The translations under genes and the position numbers were made by a program. A DNA stretch of 64,000 nucleotides, taken from contig NZ_CP121446.1 of NCBI RefSeq assembly GCF_030643905.1, positions 992,001 to 1,056,000 of the forward strand, in the 5' to 3' direction. This stretch comes from Flavobacterium sp. IMCC34852 (GTDB taxonomy: Bacteria; Bacteroidota; Bacteroidia; Flavobacteriales; Flavobacteriaceae). The notes below the pieces were generated by a model that ran no database searches, had not been told where the DNA came from, and saw nothing but the letters and a program-made list of their open reading frames with translations. Below are positions 54,740-62,179 of this stretch, in pieces (position 1 is the stretch's first letter; the number at the start of each line of letters is the position of its first letter).

Positions 54740-55990
54740 TTACAATCCGAAAGCCGATTTTACATTATCAACGAAGTCTAATTTCTCCCAAGTAAATAAC
54801 TCTACCGTTACTGTTTTCGGAGCACCATTCGGCAACTGGAAAGTTTTAGTAACCGTTTCCGGTGTTCTTCCCATGTGTCCGTAAGCTGCGGTTTCGCTGT
54901 AAATTGGATTTCTCAATTTCAAACGTTGCTCAATAAAGTAAGGTCGCATGTCAAAAATACCTTCAACCACTTTGCTGATTTCACCGTCGGTCATGTTCAC
55001 TTTTGCAGTGCCATAAGTATTTACGTTGATAGAGGTTGGTTTTGCCACTCCAATCGCATAAGAAACTTGTACTAAAATCTCATCACACAATCCTGCCGCT
55101 ACTAAGTTTTTAGCAATATGACGTGTCGCATAAGCCGCAGAACGGTCTACTTTTGAAGGATCTTTTCCGGAGAATGCACCACCACCGTGAGCACCTTTTC
55201 CACCATAAGTATCCACAATGATTTTTCTTCCGGTCAAACCGGTATCTCCGTGTGGTCCGCCAATAACGAATTTTCCGGTTGGGTTGATGTGGTAAGTAAT
55301 ATTGTCATTGAATAAATGAGCGTATTGTGGGTATTTGGCTTTAATTCTCGGAATCAAAATCGAAATCAAATCGCTTTTAATTTTAGCCAACATTTCTGCT
55401 TCTGCCGCAAAATCATCATGCTGAGTAGAAATTACAATGGCGTCAATTCTAACCGGTTTGTTGTCGTCTGAATACTCTAAAGTCACTTGCGATTTAGCAT
55501 CCGGGCGAAGGTATTTGATTTCGTTGTTTTCTCTTCTTAAGTTAGCCAATTCGATTAACAAAGCATGAGACAAATCTAAAGCCAATGGCATATAGTTCTC
55601 TGTTTCATTTGTAGCGTAACCAAACATCATTCCTTGGTCACCAGCACCTTGCTCTTCTTTGCTGGCTCTGTCAACCCCTTGATTGATGTCAGCAGATTGT
55701 TCGTGAATGGCCGAAAGGATACCACATGAATCCGCATCAAACATATACTCACTTTTAGTGTATCCGATTTTTTTGATTACTTCTCTTGCAATTTGTTGAA
55801 CGTCAAGATAAGTGCTCGATTTTACTTCACCAGCCAAAATTACTTGACCGGTGGTAACCAACGTTTCACAAGCCACTTTCGACTCAGCATCAAAGGCTAA
55901 AAAATTATCAATTAACGCATCACTAATTTGGTCTGCCACCTTATCCGGATGTCCTTCACTAACCGACTCCGAAGTAAATAAATAAGCCAT
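54740..55990 (-). CDS. metK: S-adenosylmethionine synthetase
   Basis: A 416-residue enzyme that makes SAM from methionine and [18 protein letters not shown] (11-25) with His14, [12 protein letters not shown] and [17 protein letters not shown] are the family signatures; the length is usual. It is transcribed from a promoter just ahead of a SAM-II riboswitch-like leader, giving feedback by its product. It is divergent from the metY operon, whose own leader carries Met/Cys attenuators. Confidence 0.97.
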
Positions 55991-56022
55991 AACTATATTT
56001 TAGTTTAATATTAATTTAACTG

Positions 56023-56033
56023 AAAAAAGAGGA
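56023..56033 (-). promoter_or_regulatory. Pyrimidine-rich tract in the metK leader, complementary to the riboswitch 5' arm
   Basis: On the minus strand TCCTCTTTTTT lies 32 bases before the metK start. TCCTCTT is the exact complement of AAGAGGA (56112-56106), the 5' arm of the riboswitch P1 helix. It is a candidate part of the expression platform, acting as a terminator arm or competing helix; the actual switching structure is inference. Confidence 0.45.
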
Positions 56034-56044
56034 GATTGCTATGA

Positions 56045-56113
56045 AAGCTAAAGAAGAGTTTCTGCTTTAGCATTTTTTAACGAGGTTGCAATCAGTTCAA
56101 ATTTTTCCTCTTA
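56045..56113 (-). ncRNA. SAM-II riboswitch-like leader of metK
   Basis: Read on the minus strand, the leader has the SAM-II order of conserved elements: GAGG (P1 5'), ATTTG, TTGCAACCTC (P1 3' arm CCTC), GTTAAA and GCTAAAGC. P1 pairs GAGG with CCTC, and the rest would form the H-type pseudoknot. GCTAAAG (56071-56065) is also the exact complement of CTTTAGC (56053-56047), a competing 7-bp hairpin. The predicted transcription start lies a few bases upstream. SAM binding would lower metK expression. The call is by motif recall; a covariance-model search would settle it. Confidence 0.82.
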
Positions 56114-56124
56114 TTTTTCGGTTG

Positions 56125-56153
56125 CAAATGTATAAAGACTAATTCGAAAACAA
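56125..56153 (-). promoter_or_regulatory. metK promoter
   Basis: On the minus strand a TTG precedes TACATTTG (56132-56125) by 18 bases; TACATTTG is an exact TAnnTTTG box. Transcription would begin near 56118, directly ahead of the SAM-II element. Confidence 0.65.
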
Positions 56154-56200
56154 AAAACAATTTATCTTTTTTTATTTTATTTATGATTTTTTCTAAAATC

Positions 56201-56217
56201 TAAATACGTAGTATTTA
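56201..56217. promoter_or_regulatory. Inverted repeat TAAATAC-GTA-GTATTTA between metK and the metY leader
   Basis: Perfect 7-bp arms with a 3-base spacer, in the divergent promoter region. It may be a binding site for a dimeric regulator of metK and/or metY; no regulator gene is present nearby. Confidence 0.4.
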
Positions 56218-56315
56218 AATATATATAACCAAACTTCAAATGTTAAATTTTCAAATTTTGTTTGGTCAATTGAAAAAACATTCAGAAGTTTGTTCCGATA
56301 AAAATCAAGAAAAAA

Positions 56316-56384
56316 ATGAAATTAAATATTTGCAATATGTGTCGCATGATGTGGAAATCTCCGCAGAGGACGCTTATGGCATAA
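56316..56384 (+). CDS. Met/Cys-rich leader peptide 1 of the metY operon
   Basis: A 22-codon ORF (ATG 56316, TAA 56382) with the cluster I-C-N-M-C-R-M-M-W at residues 5-13; in all five Met and two Cys of 22 residues. Codons 16-18 overlap GCAGAGG (56363-56369), which is complementary to the 5' arm of the terminator that follows (CCTCTGC, 56412-56418). Ribosome stalling at the Met/Cys codons would leave GCAGAGG free to form an antiterminator. Too short for routine gene calling. The peptide itself probably has no function. Confidence 0.85.
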   Translation: MKLNICNMCRMMWKSPQRTLMA

Positions 56385-56440
56385 TTTTAAATTTAAAATA
56401 TATCCATCAAACCTCTGCACAATCGCAGAGGTTTTTTTTT
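56363..56440 (+). promoter_or_regulatory. Attenuator 1: antiterminator/terminator of the metY operon
   Basis: Segment A GCAGAGG (56363-56369) and segment C GCAGAGG (56425-56431) are identical, and both can pair with segment B CCTCTGC (56412-56418). B-C forms a 9-bp terminator stem (AACCTCTGC/GCAGAGGTT, loop ACAATC) ending in a T-run to 56440. A-B forms the alternative, antitermination helix. This is the textbook layout of leader-peptide attenuation. Confidence 0.87.
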
Positions 56441-56461
56441 ACTCTGAAATAATTTCAGAGT
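56441..56461 (+). repeat. Near-perfect 21-base hairpin after attenuator 1
   Basis: Arms ACTCTGAAAT and ATTTCAGAGT are perfectly complementary around a single A. It begins one base after the T-run of terminator 1. It may stabilise a processed RNA end or be a terminator remnant; no T-run follows. Confidence 0.55.
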
Positions 56462-56493
56462 CTAGTGAAAAGTAAAAACAATAATTTAAAACA

Positions 56494-56516
56494 GATGCTG
56501 AAACGAGTTCAGCATA
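56494..56516. repeat. Dispersed palindromic repeat, copy A (ATGCTGAA-ACGAG-TTCAGCAT)
   Basis: Perfect 8-bp arms with a 5-base loop, six bases before the start of leader peptide 2. A second copy in inverted orientation, 19 of 21 bases identical, is at 61011-61031. Confidence 0.75.
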
Positions 56517-56521
56517 AAGCA

Positions 56522-56623
56522 ATGAAAGTAACAGCAAAAAATATGATGAACAACAACCGTATGATGCACATGATGATGTGTTGTTGTATCGACATGCCCT
56601 GTTACCAAAAGCGAAAGACTTAA
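56522..56623 (+). CDS. Met/Cys-rich leader peptide 2 of the metY operon
   Basis: A 33-codon ORF (ATG 56522, TAA 56621-56623). Residues 8-22 read MMNNNRMMHMMMCCC, followed by IDMPC, so nine Met and four Cys in 33 residues. The density of exactly these two codons is far above chance. The last codons (CCAAAAG at 56605-56611 and GACTT at 56617-56621) can pair with the 5' arm of the following terminator. Starvation for charged Met- or Cys-tRNA would stall the ribosome and favour antitermination. An internal start at residue 8 is possible. Confidence 0.9.
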   Translation: MKVTAKNMMNNNRMMHMMMCCCIDMPCYQKRKT

Positions 56624-56684
56624 TCGAAGTTTATATTTATACTCTAGAAGTCCTTTTGGTAAGCCATCCAAAAGGACTTTTTTT
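56605..56684 (+). promoter_or_regulatory. Attenuator 2: antiterminator/terminator of the metY operon
   Basis: The terminator is a perfect 12-bp stem AAGTCCTTTTGG (56648-56659) / CCAAAAGGACTT (56668-56679), loop TAAGCCAT, followed by a T-run to 56684. The 5' arm can instead pair with CCAAAAG (56605-56611) plus GACTT (56617-56621) at the end of leader ORF 2, also 12 bp with a 5-base bulge. The stop codon overlaps this antiterminator arm, so a ribosome finishing the leader would block it. The operon's first gene starts 49 bases after the T-run. Confidence 0.92.
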
Positions 56685-56733
56685 ATTCCCAAAAATTAAT
56701 AATCTAAATAGCTAACAATTAAATTTTAAAATC

Positions 56734-58026
56734 ATGAGCACACAAAAATTCGCAACCAACGCCTTACACGCAGGACACGACGTTACTAAAAACGCAGGAA
56801 CCAGAGCCGTTCCGATTTACCAAACGACTTCGTATGTATTCAACAATTCTGACCACGCCGCTAACTTATTTGGTCTAGCCGAAGCCGGATTCATCTACAC
56901 GCGATTAAACAATCCAACTAACGACATTTTGGAACAACGCTTAGCCGCTCTCGAAGGTGGAATCGGAGCCGTGGTTACCGCATCGGGAACTTCAGCCATC
57001 GCCACCACTTTGTTGGTCTTACTAAAAGCGGGAGACCACATCGTAGCGTCGAATAGTCTTTACGGAGGAACTTACAATTTGTTGAACGTAACCTTACCAA
57101 GATTGGGTATCACAACTACTTTCGTAGATCCGTCTAATCCTGAAAACTTTACCAAAGCCGCCCAAGAAAACACCAGAGCGTTTTTCGCAGAAAGTTTGGG
57201 CAACCCTAAACTGGATGTGCTGGATTTGAAAGCCATTTCCAAAGAAGCCAAAGGGTTTAAAGTGCCTTTCATTGTGGACAACACAGTCGCTACGCCTTAT
57301 TTGTTAAACCCAATTCAACACGGTGCCGATATTGTCATTCACTCGCTAACCAAATACATTACCGGAAACGGAACTTCACTTGGAGGCGTAATCATCGATG
57401 CCGGAAACTTTGACTGGAGCAATGGGAAATTCCCTGAATTTACCGAACCATCAGCCGGTTATCACGGTTTGAAATACTATGAAGCTTTGGGCGCAGCGTC
57501 ATTTATCGCCAAAGTAAGAATCGAAGGCTTACGCGATTTTGGGGCAGCTTTATCTCCGTTCAACGCGTTCCAAACGATTCAAGGCTTGGAAACTTTGGCA
57601 ATCAGAATCAAAAAACACAGCGAAAATGCTTTGGCCTTAGCCCAATGGTTGCAAACCCAAGAAGAAGTAGCATGGGTAAATTATCCCGGATTAGAAACTT
57701 CAAAATACAAAGCTTTAGCCGATGAATACCTACCGGAAGGCAAAAGTGGCATCGTAACTTTCGGTCTGAAAGGCGGATTTGAAGCAGCCAAGAAAGTAGC
57801 CGATGAAACCAAATTGTTCTCTTTACTAGCCAATATTGGAGACACTAAATCATTAATCATCCATCCGGCAAGCACAACGCACCAACAATTATCTGGCGCC
57901 GAACAAGAGTCAACCGGAGTAACCAAAGACTTAATCCGTTTGTCTGTTGGTTTAGAAAATATCGACGACTTGAAAGCCGATTTGAAAGAAGCCTTTGTAA
58001 AAATTAAAACCCCACAAACTGTATAA
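56734..58026 (+). CDS. metY: O-acetylhomoserine sulfhydrylase
   Basis: A 430-residue PLP enzyme of the Cys/Met-metabolism family. The PLP lysine is Lys207 in HSLTKYITGNGTSLGG; QTTSYVF, YTRLNNPTND, ASGTSAIA and VDNTVATPYL are typical of O-acetylhomoserine aminocarboxypropyltransferases. It makes homocysteine from O-acetylhomoserine and sulphide. The product of metX, two genes on, is its substrate. Expression is very likely governed by the two leader-peptide attenuators upstream. Its stop and the OsmC start are one base apart. Confidence 0.93.
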   Translation: MSTQKFATNALHAGHDVTKNAGTRAVPIYQTTSYVFNNSDHAANLFGLAEAGFIYTRLNNPTNDILEQRLAALEGGIGAVVTASGTSAIATTLLVLLKAGDHIVASNSLYGGTYNLLNVTLPRLGITTTFVDPSNPENFTKAAQENTRAFFAESLGNPKLDVLDLKAISKEAKGFKVPFIVDNTVATPYLLNPIQHGADIVIHSLTKYITGNGTSLGGVIIDAGNFDWSNGKFPEFTEPSAGYHGLKYYEALGAASFIAKVRIEGLRDFGAALSPFNAFQTIQGLETLAIRIKKHSENALALAQWLQTQEEVAWVNYPGLETSKYKALADEYLPEGKSGIVTFGLKGGFEAAKKVADETKLFSLLANIGDTKSLIIHPASTTHQQLSGAEQESTGVTKDLIRLSVGLENIDDLKADLKEAFVKIKTPQTV

Positions 58027-58027
58027 C

Positions 58028-58489
58028 ATGAGCACAAAAACCGTAAACATAATTGGCTATGCTAAAGAAAACAATCAATTCGTAGTCAAAGCCCAAAACT
58101 TCGACATCAGAATTAGTAAAAATGATCAATTTCCTGAACTGGAAGGACCAAGTCCGATAGAATACATTTTGGCCGGTTATGCCGGTTGCATCAATGCCGT
58201 CGGGAAATTGGTAGCCAAAGAACAAGGCATCGATTTAAAATCACTTCAAGTTGAAATCTCGGGAACCTTAAGTTTAGACAAATACCAGGGAAAAATTAGC
58301 GATGAAAGAGCCGGATTTAAATCGATAGAAGTAACCGTAAAGCCCAAATCTGATGCCACTTTGGACCAATTAAAGGATTGGTTAATCACCGTTGAAAACC
58401 GTTGTCCGGTTCAGGACAATTTGATCAATCCAACGCCGGTTTCAGTGGTGTTGGTTAAAGAATATGAAGCTACAGCAACAACGCTGTAA
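58028..58489 (+). CDS. OsmC-family protein
   Basis: A 153-residue OsmC/YhfA-like protein. The two redox cysteines are Cys54 in YAGCINAVG and Cys126 in ENRCPVQDNL. Family members reduce organic hydroperoxides with thiols. It starts one base after metY, inside the methionine operon, which suggests a link with sulphur amino acids, for example persulphide or peroxide detoxification; that is inference from position. Confidence 0.9.
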   Translation: MSTKTVNIIGYAKENNQFVVKAQNFDIRISKNDQFPELEGPSPIEYILAGYAGCINAVGKLVAKEQGIDLKSLQVEISGTLSLDKYQGKISDERAGFKSIEVTVKPKSDATLDQLKDWLITVENRCPVQDNLINPTPVSVVLVKEYEATATTL

Positions 58490-58640: not shown

Positions 58641-59642
58641 ATGAAAAAGTTGGAAAAAATAGATTTGTTTAATTTCGATTTAGAAAACGGAAAACAACGC
58701 CCATACATTCCGTTATTCTATCAAACATTTGGTCAAGCCATCGGCACAGCGCCGGTTGTGGTAGTCAATCACGCTTTAACCGGAAACTCCAATGTCACCG
58801 GAGAAAACGGATGGTGGAACGATTTAATAGGAGAAGAAAAAATCATTGATACCAATCATTTCACCGTAATTGCGTTCAACATTCCGGGAAATGGCTATGA
58901 TGACAACTTCGGGAATTTGATTTCAACCTACAAAGATTTTACCATTCGCGATGTGGCACGTATTTTTTGGGAAGGTTTAGATTTCCTCAAAATCGAACAA
59001 GTTTTTGCGGTGATCGGAGGAAGTTTAGGCGGAGCAGTAGCTTGGGAAATGACAGTGTTAAAGCCAAATGCAGTTCAAAATCTCATCCCAATTGCCACCG
59101 ATTGGAAAGCCACCGATTGGGTGATTGCCAATGTCCTAATCCAAGACCAAGTATTGAACAATTCCGATGATCCCATTGCCGATGCGAGATTGCACGCTAT
59201 GTTATTGTATCGAACACCCCAATCAATCAACCAACGCTTTCAAAGAAGTAAATTCAATGATTCTTCAGTGTTTCAAATCGAGAATTGGTTGGCCAATCAC
59301 GGTGTGAAACTCAAAAATCGCTTTCGTTTATCGGCTTACAAATTGATGAATCATTTGCTCAAAACCAATGATATTACTCGGAACAGAGGTGATTTTTTGG
59401 CGGTAGCCAAAGCCATTCAAGGAAACATTCACGTAGTCGCTGTTGATACAGATTATTTTTTTATTCCGGATGAAAATCGGGAAACGGTTGAAAACTTAAA
59501 ACCGATAAAAGAAAATGTCTTCTATCACGAAATAAAATCCATCCACGGACACGACGCTTTTTTAATCGAATTCGAACAATTAGCCCAAATTTTATCACCC
59601 ATTTTTAACAAACAAAAACAAAAAAATTATGTCAGCGCTTAG
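58641..59642 (+). CDS. metX: Homoserine O-acetyltransferase-like alpha/beta hydrolase
   Basis: A 333-residue alpha/beta-hydrolase enzyme. NHALTGNSNVTG (43-54) and the nucleophile Ser128 in VIGGSLGGAVAWE are typical of MetX; the late Asp (VDTDYFFIP) and His (IHGHDAFLIE) complete the triad. It acetylates homoserine to the substrate of MetY. It is somewhat shorter than usual MetX. Its 3' end overlaps the homoserine dehydrogenase start by 14 bases. Succinyl rather than acetyl transfer cannot be excluded from sequence. Confidence 0.9.
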   Translation: MKKLEKIDLFNFDLENGKQRPYIPLFYQTFGQAIGTAPVVVVNHALTGNSNVTGENGWWNDLIGEEKIIDTNHFTVIAFNIPGNGYDDNFGNLISTYKDFTIRDVARIFWEGLDFLKIEQVFAVIGGSLGGAVAWEMTVLKPNAVQNLIPIATDWKATDWVIANVLIQDQVLNNSDDPIADARLHAMLLYRTPQSINQRFQRSKFNDSSVFQIENWLANHGVKLKNRFRLSAYKLMNHLLKTNDITRNRGDFLAVAKAIQGNIHVVAVDTDYFFIPDENRETVENLKPIKENVFYHEIKSIHGHDAFLIEFEQLAQILSPIFNKQKQKNYVSA

Positions 59643-60729
59643 AATCAATATAGTCCTTTTCGGTATCGGCAATGTCGGTAGTACTTTAGTCAACCAAGTT
59701 ATTGAAAGTCAAAAATTCTTTCTTGAGAAGAAGAATATCGATTTGAGATTTCCCATCATCACCAATTCTACTTTGGCCTTCTTCGAAAAAGACGGGCTCA
59801 AAAACCAATGGGAAGCCAATTTCGCCCAATCCGCCATTCCGTTCAGAATCGAAGACATCATCGAATACGTGCAAGAACAACAATTGGAAAACCTGATAGC
59901 TGTCGATGCCACTGCGAGTCAAGACATCATCAAAAATTACATTCCGTTAATCCAAAACGGTTTCAATATTGTCGCCGCCAATAAAAAAGCGAATACATTG
60001 CACACCGATTTCTACAAAGAACTGAGAAGAAATCTCAAGAAACACGATAAAACATTTTTATACGAAACCAATGTTGGTGCAGGTTTGCCGGTCGTTCAAA
60101 CGATAAACGATTTGCACTTTTCAGGTGAAGAAATCACGAAAATCCGCGGTGTATTCTCGGGTTCGTTGAGTTATATTTTTAATAGATTTTCTACAGAAGA
60201 ATTGCCGTTTTCCAAAATCTTACTCGATGCCGAGAAAAACGGCTACACCGAACCGGATTCTCGAGACGACTTATCCGGACACGATGTAGCCAGAAAATTA
60301 TTGATTCTCGCCCGTGAAATCGAACAAGAATTTGAATTCACCGATATCAAAATTGAATCCCTTTTGCTGCCAAACCTAAATGAAAAAAGCGCCAAATCTG
60401 AGTATGCAGTCAACAAACAATTGTTTGACAAACCTTTCCAAATTGCCAAAATCACCCAAGCCGATAACCATGTCTTGCGCTATGTAGGTGAATTGGAGGT
60501 TAAAACCAAGCAATTGGAAGTTAAACTGGTTTCGGTTCCCGGAAGTTCGGCTTTAGGCCAACTCAAAGGTGCCGATAATCTAATCGAAATTTATACCCAA
60601 TCTTATGGCGAAATCCCAATCGTCATTCAAGGCGCCGGAGCCGGAAAACAAGTTACGGCTCGTGGCGTTTTGACCGATATTCTCAAAGTAGCCGAGAAAA
60701 TCAAAATCAAAGAAGCGATTTGGTTATAA
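59629..60729 (+). CDS. hom: Homoserine dehydrogenase
   Basis: A 366-residue stand-alone enzyme. The NAD(P)-binding motif FGIGNVGSTL is at 11-20; ANKKANT, YETNVGAGLPVVQT, IRGVFSGSLSYIFN and DDLSGHDVARKLLILARE are the catalytic-domain signatures. It makes homoserine from aspartate semialdehyde, the branch-point feeding MetX. No aspartokinase is fused and no ACT domain is seen. It is the last gene of the metY operon and is followed by a strong terminator. Confidence 0.93.
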   Translation: MSALRINIVLFGIGNVGSTLVNQVIESQKFFLEKKNIDLRFPIITNSTLAFFEKDGLKNQWEANFAQSAIPFRIEDIIEYVQEQQLENLIAVDATASQDIIKNYIPLIQNGFNIVAANKKANTLHTDFYKELRRNLKKHDKTFLYETNVGAGLPVVQTINDLHFSGEEITKIRGVFSGSLSYIFNRFSTEELPFSKILLDAEKNGYTEPDSRDDLSGHDVARKLLILAREIEQEFEFTDIKIESLLLPNLNEKSAKSEYAVNKQLFDKPFQIAKITQADNHVLRYVGELEVKTKQLEVKLVSVPGSSALGQLKGADNLIEIYTQSYGEIPIVIQGAGAGKQVTARGVLTDILKVAEKIKIKEAIWL

Positions 60730-60844: not shown

Positions 60845-60867
60845 CAGCGTTCATAAACTTATTGTTC

Positions 60868-60968
60868 GTTATCACGAAAGCTGGAGGGAATAGACCCGTT
60901 GAAAGCTTAGCAACCCTTTGCCAAAAGAAGGTGCTACATTCTATCTCAATTAATCGAGAGCAGATAAC
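60868..60968 (+). ncRNA. SAM-I (S-box) riboswitch upstream of metH
   Basis: All S-box landmarks are present in order: P1 5' GTTATC, GGAGGGA (kink-turn side), GACCC, TTGAAAGC, TTAGCAACCC, GCCAAAAGAAGG, GGTGCTACATTC, the P4 hairpin TCTC/GAGA, and P1 3' GATAAC (60963-60968). SAM binding should reduce expression of metH. Downstream CTTTC-AC-GATAAC (60986-60998) is complementary to GTTATC-AC-GAAAG (60868-60880) apart from the two central bases, a candidate competing helix. A small hairpin GAGAA/TTCTC lies at 60972-60984. Confidence 0.95.
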
Positions 60969-61010
60969 CCCGAGAATTCTTCTCACTTTCACGATAACAT
61001 ACTATAATTA

Positions 61011-61189: not shown

Positions 61190-62179
61190 ATGTCAAAAAT
61201 ACAGCAAGCCATCAAAGAAAGAATCCTCGTCCTAGACGGCGCTATGGGAACCATGCTGCAGCGCAACAACTTCTCCGAAGAAGACTTCCGAGGCGAGCGT
61301 TTCAAAGATTTTCCACATCCGCTAAAAGGCAACAACGATTTGCTTTCCATCACCCAACCCGAAGCCGTAAAACAAGTCCACCGCTTGTATTTTCAAGCCG
61401 GTGCCGATATCGTAGAAACCAACACCTTCTCAGGAACCACCATCGGGATGGCCGATTACCACATGGAAGATTTGGTGTATGAACTCAATTACCAATCCGC
61501 CAAAATTGCCCGAGAAGTAGCCGATGAATTCACCGACAGACCGCGTTTTGTAGCCGGTTCTATCGGGCCAACCAACCGAACAGCCAGCATGTCGCCCGAT
61601 GTCAATGATCCGGGTTTTCGCGCTGTGACTTTTGACGATTTGCGAATCGCTTACAAACAACAAGTAGAAGCGTTAATCGACGGTGGTTGTGATGTACTTT
61701 TAGTGGAAACTATCTTCGACACACTAAACGCCAAAGCCGCTTTATTCGCCATCGAAGAGGTAAAAGAAGAGCGCAATTTAGATATTCCCGTAATGGTTTC
61801 CGGAACAATTACCGATGCGTCAGGAAGAACACTTTCCGGTCAAACGGTGGAAGCGTTTTTGATTTCTATCGCGCATATTCCCTTATTAAGTATCGGATTC
61901 AATTGCGCTTTAGGTGCCGACCAATTGAAACCCTATTTAAAAAGACTAGCACACAATACTACTTTAAATATTTCAGCACATCCCAATGCAGGCTTACCCA
62001 ATGCTTTCGGGCAATATGACCAAACACCAACGGAAATGCAAGCACTGATTAAAGACTATTTGCAAGACAATTTAGTCAACATCATCGGTGGCTGTTGCGG
62101 TACCACGCCGGAACACATCAAAGCCATCGCTGAGGTAGCTAAAGAATTCAAACCAAGACAAATTTTAGAAACGATATAA
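61190..62179 (+). CDS. metH: Methionine synthase, homocysteine-binding subunit (split MetH, part 1)
   Basis: A 329-residue protein equal to the N-terminal homocysteine S-methyltransferase module of cobalamin-dependent methionine synthase. [13 protein letters not shown] starts the domain, and the zinc ligands are Cys239 (GFNCALGA) and Cys302-Cys303 ([10 protein letters not shown]). In E. coli this module is fused to the rest. The stop overlaps the next start by one base (TAATG), so the two halves are made together. Expression is probably under the S-box 220 bases upstream. Confidence 0.92.

Follow-up and report, generated by a model that had tools for sequence, protein, structure and literature searches.

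Two putative leader-peptide attenuators in series, rich in methionine and cysteine codons, before metY-osmC-metX-hom in Flavobacterium

The window, a 64,000-nucleotide stretch of the 3.17 Mb genome of Flavobacterium sp. IMCC34852, contains a presumed operon whose first gene is metY, of the O-acetylhomoserine sulfhydrylase family (56734..58026, forward strand; TIGR01326 above cut-off); among the matches listed, the closest named one to its product is from Flavobacterium buctense, at 98%. On the same strand follow genes for an OsmC-like protein (58028..58489; PF02566 above the Pfam cut-off), a metX-like acyltransferase (58641..59642; TIGR01392 with 191 bits, below its cut-off of 500) and a homoserine dehydrogenase domain protein, hom (59629..60729). 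These family matches agree with the gene order metY-osmC-metX-hom given in a first-pass annotation of this DNA; those of metX and hom are clear, yet fall below curated cut-offs. Divergent from metY lies metK (54740-55990, reverse strand; above the NCBIfam cut-off) with its SAM-II riboswitch (56057..56116, reverse strand; Rfam), and a SAM-I riboswitch (60866..60970, forward strand; Rfam) precedes the N-terminal part of metH (61190-62179, forward strand; a partial match below cut-off).

Between metK and metY we found two units, each consisting of a short open reading frame rich in Met and Cys codons and then a hairpin with a T-run; a single gene cluster holds presumed leader peptides before metY, SAM-I before metH and SAM-II before metK. 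Re-reading the sequence returned exactly the coordinates first proposed for both frames, and all parts lie on the forward strand. Leader peptide 1 (56316..56384; 22 amino acids, MKLNICNMCRMMWKSPQRTLMA), whose Met and Cys codons are conserved, contains within its frame an arm, A1 (GCAGAGG, 56363..56369). Downstream lies intrinsic terminator 1 (56409..56440), made up of B1 (CCTCTGC, 56412-56418), C1 (56425-56431) and a run of nine T (56432-56440). Pairing of A1 with B1 would form an antiterminator, extended by an inner helix (56376..56407) of ATGG (56376-56379) with CCAT (56404-56407), where most other sequences have ATTG and CAAT. Leader peptide 2 (56522..56623; 33 amino acids, MKVTAKNMMNNNRMMHMMMCCCIDMPCYQKRKT; conserved) carries near its end arm A2 (CCAAAAG, 56605..56611), the predicted partner of B2 (CTTTTGG, 56653-56659) in intrinsic terminator 2 (56647..56684; C2 at 56668-56674, then a T-run). 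The earlier claim that each leader is followed by a strong terminator whose 5' arm is complementary to the end of its own leader holds. Both terminator regions fold better than shuffled sequences, with z = -4.78 and 0/200 as good for the first and z = -3.40 and 1/200 as good for the second.

Upstream of leader 1, at 56258..56300 (forward strand), lies a possible Bacteroidota-type promoter (TTTGG ... CAGAAGTTTG), proposed from the sequence by comparison with what we take to be the consensus of that phylum; similar blocks occur in loci L007, L012 and L041. Positions 56316-56684 gave no Rfam match at gathering score, SAM models included, and no T-box matched at gathering score within the window. 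Besides SAM-II, lax thresholds returned matches in 55800-57000 to unrelated leaders and RNAs, all sub-gathering, which we took as chance. A search of the own genome with model R1, for element 1, gave no convincing second copy (next best E 0.048).

Taken together with the comparative evidence below, this arrangement makes it highly probable that the region before metY-osmC-metX-hom consists of two ribosome-mediated transcription attenuators in series, which would sense methionine and, probably, cysteine. Met and Cys together account for 28% of the codons after the start in leader 1 and 37% in leader 2, against 1.7% in seven proteins of the window, bearing out the initial impression that both short frames are rich in these codons.

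We assessed conservation in a near-home set made up of the window and the best 80 of 503 MetY loci, almost all of which carry the label Flavobacterium or Flavobacteriaceae. A Met/Cys-rich leader, defined as an open reading frame of 12-60 amino acids that has 5 or more Met/Cys within 12 residues and lies no more than 700 nt upstream of metY, was present in 81/81 of these loci; five rounds of dinucleotide shuffling averaged 0, and the reverse strand gave 2/81. That the frames arose by chance beside ordinary terminators, a reading for which we found nothing in favour, is left by the shuffles with a next to negligible probability. Two such leaders within the 700 nt occurred in 46/81 loci of the set. 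When terminator and leader were required together within 1100 nt, element 1 was found in 63/81 and element 2 in 69/81 (61 by regular expression and 8, with CCCTTTGG, added by eye); 51 loci of the set had both elements, 12 only element 1, 18 only element 2 and none neither. The tandem double gate proposed at first sight is therefore the arrangement in 51/81 of this set, while 30/81 have one gate only.

Several loci depart from the common plan. The L044-type loci are the 12/81 (window and best 80 of 503) with element 1 alone, and L044 itself has, in place of leader 2, a small Cys-rich open reading frame (MKIAIYNPRRCCRMCS) without a terminator. In L036-L039 leader 2 ends before arm A2; in L042 (F. 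psychrophilum) leader 1 lacks the MM pair and the usual stop codon and looks degenerate, and leader 2 looks intact. Similar open reading frames of about 60 amino acids, with SLLxxxYxLEEE near the end, lie between element 2 and metY in L047, L049, L055, L058, L062 and L071, and the one tested had no Pfam match. Two contigs labelled as Bifidobacterium breve and Nitrotoga MAGs (L009, L016) carry a Flavobacterium-like metY region (95% MetY) and are probably mis-binned.

Leader 1 follows a pattern like MNLIICNMCRMMWKxPQRxxIA and leader 2 one like MNxxxKNMMMxxMMHMMCCCIxIPCYQKRKT. Beyond the start codon, Met is present in 82/82 leader-1 and 83/83 leader-2 peptides, and Cys in 77/82 and 83/83, respectively; the last Met codon stands at one fixed spacing in 60/82 leaders. 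The claim that the leaders combine both amino acids thus stands for Met in leader 1 throughout and for Cys with five exceptions. Those 5/82 leaders without Cys, set against Met in 82/82, and an operon that encodes homocysteine-forming steps are what would be expected if the same attenuators sensed methionine alone, with the Cys codons incidental or tuning ribosome speed. We regard this version as possible though rather unlikely, given that Cys occurs in 83/83 leader-2 peptides, where it makes up 15.5% of codons against a background of 0.3%, and that leaders next to SAM-I in two other families (f3 and f23, below) average more Cys than Met.

Arm A1 has a nearly invariant core that nevertheless falls in two reading frames: it is PQR-like in 45/82 leaders and SAE-like in 32/82, with a third frame in 1 and the arm not detected in 4. 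Many sequences have gained one base ahead of the arm and lost one behind it, and the Met stretch stays in frame throughout although the frame of A1 differs. Entropy by codon position in the leaders had only mild periodicity. Predicted pairing occurs in 94.2% of cells for A1:B1 (45 Flavobacterium sequences) and in 93.1% for A2:B2 (54 Flavobacterium sequences). The double change of the inner helix from ATTG/CAAT to ATGG/CCAT is found in 5/45 sequences, all close to the window, and possibly represents one event. Pairs of element 1 changed on both sides number 2 within Flavobacterium, a value reached by 204/500 shuffles; a slid control scored 0.079 against 0.082 observed, and two of five shuffle measures were ordinary. 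For element 2, one cell has a double change, and three slid controls outscore the true pairing. Within Flavobacterium, then, covariation is weak, and it is conservation that argues for the predicted pairing.

Between genera the two elements differ. A covariance model of element 2, R2, run on 299 Flavobacteriaceae genomes, matched 82/299 at E 0.1, many of them weakly, and inspection of the 30 matches with loci gave, besides the own locus, 14 further metY loci, of which 1 belongs to the same genus and 13 are spread over 11 others. Both leaders were present in 14/14; since element 2 served to find these loci, element 1 alone provides an independent count. An even sample of the family (below) added six genera, with two leaders in L157 and L171 and a single leader in 4/6 loci (L133, L183, L185 and L206). 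Across 20 loci from 17 genera (L206 and L117 left out), the summed pairing of element-1 arms within genomes was 338, compared with a permuted mean of 253 (sd 15, maximum 307), and 0/2000 permutations were as good, by a statistic that ignores relatedness. The arm pairs include GCAGAGG/CCTCTGC, GCAGCG/CGCTGC, GCAGGG/CCCTGC, GCAAGGGC/GCCCTTGC and GCGAAGGC/GCCTTTGC, and pairing comprises only 5 bp in L103 and L183. Between genera, the two predicted arms of element 1, in leader and terminator, thus change together. Element 2 pairs over only 4-5 bp in L097, L098, L104, L106 and others, and its putative switch has little covariation support. The first-pass annotation had suggested looking for conserved codons and compensatory changes in the arms. 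Both leaders conform in their codons, and element 1 conforms in its arms between genera; element 2 has an arm conserved within Flavobacterium, with covariation that does not exceed slid controls and weak pairing in several other genera.

These comparisons bear on a different use of the leaders, in which translation serves only for polarity or the repeated AUG provides decoy starts, and each hairpin simply ends a short RNA as an ordinary terminator. The long series of AUG codons, together with a terminator more stable than the antiterminator, would suit it; arms A and B that covary between genera, an arm read in two frames, the Cys codons and the conserved terminators between leader and operon do not, and we consider it very improbable.

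Some R2 matches lay at other genes. A Met/Cys leader precedes metX in L107; in L113 (G079) and L116 (G100) a Met/Cys leader and terminator precede a nitrite/sulfite reductase gene (Pfam), and by eye the arm at the end of the leader is complementary to that of the terminator. In L109 (G022) a Met-rich leader and terminator stand before a 120-amino-acid open reading frame without a Pfam match above cut-off, and L117 has a Met/Cys leader on one contig and metY on another. The other inspected matches of the 30 had no Met/Cys leader at the match.

Computed folds favour a switch in both elements: A pairs with B in a nascent transcript that ends at B1 or B2, and with A masked the terminator forms. 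Once element 1 is fully transcribed with A1 free, the terminator has -21.2 kcal/mol compared with -15.9 for the nascent antiterminator; for element 2 with A2 free the values are -21.5 and -10.0 kcal/mol. Because the terminator is the minimum-energy fold even with A free, the antiterminator would have to win kinetically, by forming first and persisting, and for a purely thermodynamic picture of the switch the stable terminator is a real weakness.

From sequence features we infer that the leaders are translated and ribosomes stall, which amino acids are sensed and how expression responds; attenuation would proceed as follows. RNA polymerase would make leader 1, followed by a ribosome. With ample charged tRNA-Met (and tRNA-Cys), the ribosome would reach the stop codon and cover A1, B1 would pair with C1, and the transcript would end near 56440. 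With Met (or Cys) scarce, it would stall on the Met/Cys codons shortly before A1, leaving A1 free to pair with B1; terminator 1 would be blocked and transcription would continue to the second gate, where leader 2 and A2, B2 and C2 would act equivalently. Only transcripts passing both gates would reach metY-osmC-metX-hom. In the window, 14 nt separate the start of the second ATG of the MM pair from A1, and the gap from A1 to the stop codon is 12 nt. Given the usual footprint size, a ribosome stalled at that ATG should have its leading edge about at A1, and the predicted geometry fits: a ribosome at the stop codon would cover A1, and the stall codons would leave it free.

The same genome offers two internal controls (own genome, L284 and L285). 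Its hisG is preceded by a His-rich leader with HHHH (MNTIITQLHHHHSCNQAS) and its pheA by a Phe-rich one with FFYFFF (MRQFNTFYTYFFYFFFGQKKGLVLCYVKK), with a terminator hairpin after each leader; the genome yielded no ilvD and therefore no ilv leader control. Predicted leader codon content follows the pathway. Met/Cys-rich peptides can bind metals, and it is conceivable that the nascent peptide itself binds a metal or redox ligand and arrests the ribosome, in which case the RNA switch would look the same. This has a small chance of being correct, as the order and spacing of Met and Cys differ between genera while the composition stays, and the hisG and pheA leaders are plain runs of the matching amino acid.

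Classical leader-peptide attenuators are those of the his, trp, phe, thr and ilv operons of enterobacteria. The metY region resembles them in a short open reading frame enriched in codons of the operon's end product, an intrinsic terminator between leader and first gene, and, in element 1, a predicted exclusive antiterminator set by ribosome position, with its arm at the leader end and covariation between genera; in element 2 the arm at that place is conserved and complementary, but covariation does not exceed slid controls and pairing is weak in some genera. The region differs from them in its Met/Cys codons, in two complete attenuators in series and in its three arms (A in the leader, B and C); on non-systematic inspection we noticed no separate 1:2 protector hairpin. 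To our knowledge, a role in Met sensing is known only for MetJ, T-boxes and SAM riboswitches, and none of the open-access full texts searched was found to describe a Met leader attenuator. With the present candidates, methionine would join the amino acids that attenuation by leader peptides is likely to sense.

Two published systems come close. The poly-cysteine leaders of actinobacterial cys operons are described with runs of Cys close to their stop codons, and conserved terminator hairpins are absent there (PMC1262725). They share with the metY leaders Cys codons in a short frame before sulfur-amino-acid genes, but here Met dominates and there are clear terminators and antiterminator arms; with terminators present, the metY leaders do not fit that class as far as described there (PMC1262725). 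A transcriptome study of Flavobacterium psychrophilum reports strong indications that operons for amino-acid biosynthesis are preceded by leader-peptide attenuators, with conserved 5' elements named at pheA and hisG among others (PMC9723704). Those candidates belong to the same genus and the same general mechanism, and the relevant section does not name metY, Met, Cys or tandem gates (PMC9723704). The first-pass remark that no described Met/Cys version was known in Bacteroidota needs refining in that leader attenuation in general had already been proposed in this phylum (PMC9723704).

SAM-I and SAM-II riboswitches, which in this window precede metH and metK, stand before metY itself in many relatives; unlike them, the sensor here is a presumed translated open reading frame. 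We compared the two in an even Flavobacteriaceae sample of 99 genomes with metY, in which 97 loci were judged: 89, the own genome, and L095, L098, L099, L100, L102, L105 and L110, leaving out G037, whose metY is divided between contigs, and G007, where the leaders are not on the contig that carries metY. Upstream of metY, 71 of the 97 had SAM-I, 14 leaders, 1 SAM-II and 11 none; 0 combined SAM-I with leaders. Among the 89, SAM-I without a leader accounted for 71, a leader without SAM-I for 5 (6 with L185, at a lower threshold) and both for 0; of the remaining 12, one (L208) has an Rfam match to SAM-II before metY, and Rfam gave no SAM riboswitch for the other 11. The own genome and the seven named loci had leaders and no SAM-I upstream of metY. 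SAM-I was mostly called by regular expression, confirmed by Rfam in 20/20 loci tested; the expression recovered 37/37 Rfam-positive and 0/11 Rfam-negative loci, and missed L361 and L249, found by Rfam. Rfam searches of 14 loci of the Flavobacterium group gave no SAM riboswitch immediately before metY on its own strand: the SAM-I matches lie downstream and the SAM-II matches on the opposite strand. The putative leader pair thus sits where most sampled relatives have a SAM-I riboswitch.

In other families, leaders and SAM-I occur together. For family f23, 30 (L314-L343) of 34 genomes with metY were taken, giving 29 anchored loci, and in 27/29 a Cys/Met leader and terminator lie about 200 nt upstream of SAM-I. 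In 11/27 this pair stands 690-1220 nt before metY, so that another gene may come first. The 22 anchored loci of family f16 comprise 14 with SAM-I and no leader (strict threshold), 5 with leader and SAM-I (including L361, reassigned by Rfam) and 3 with two leaders and no SAM-I (Rfam-confirmed); one more f16 genome, G317, likewise carries two leaders and lacks SAM-I. Leaders beside SAM-I are richer in Cys than leaders without it (p = 9e-12 overall and 0.21 within f16, with relatedness ignored; L361 and the duplicate peptide L331 not included).

Family f3 has a third arrangement. SAM-I was found by regular expression in 21/28 loci, and a Cys-rich leader follows it in 17 of these (15 at a stricter threshold), 16/17 without a terminator nearby; the 7 loci without SAM-I had no Cys-rich leader. 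The leader's start codon lies 7-11 nt beyond the aptamer in the seven loci with Rfam coordinates. SAM-I followed by a CCCC-type leader comes closer to the actinobacterial poly-Cys form, as far as that is described (PMC1262725), and a composite element is possible.

We lean, with little more than even confidence, towards Met/Cys leader attenuators being a Bacteroidota-wide module of sulfur control, interchangeable with SAM-I and stackable on it, such that metY would have one SAM-I gate, a leader plus SAM-I, or leaders, often two, instead. Leader codons would complement the other gate, with more Cys where SAM-I reports Met status and more Met where SAM-I is gone, and in one family a SAM-I aptamer abutting the start of a poly-Cys leader would form a composite two-signal element. 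Such a module points to a small-molecule riboswitch replaced by translation-based sensors at the same gene, with both kinds stacked in other families, and stacked or replaced gates allow the direct question of what each contributes, SAM level or tRNA charging.

The loci with SAM-I and then a Cys-run leader (for example CCCC), for the most part lacking an intrinsic terminator, are L286-L291, L294-L296, L298, L299, L302-L305, L311 and L312 in f3, and also L213 and L218; where measured, their start codon lies 3-11 nt past the aptamer, with a longer distance in L295.
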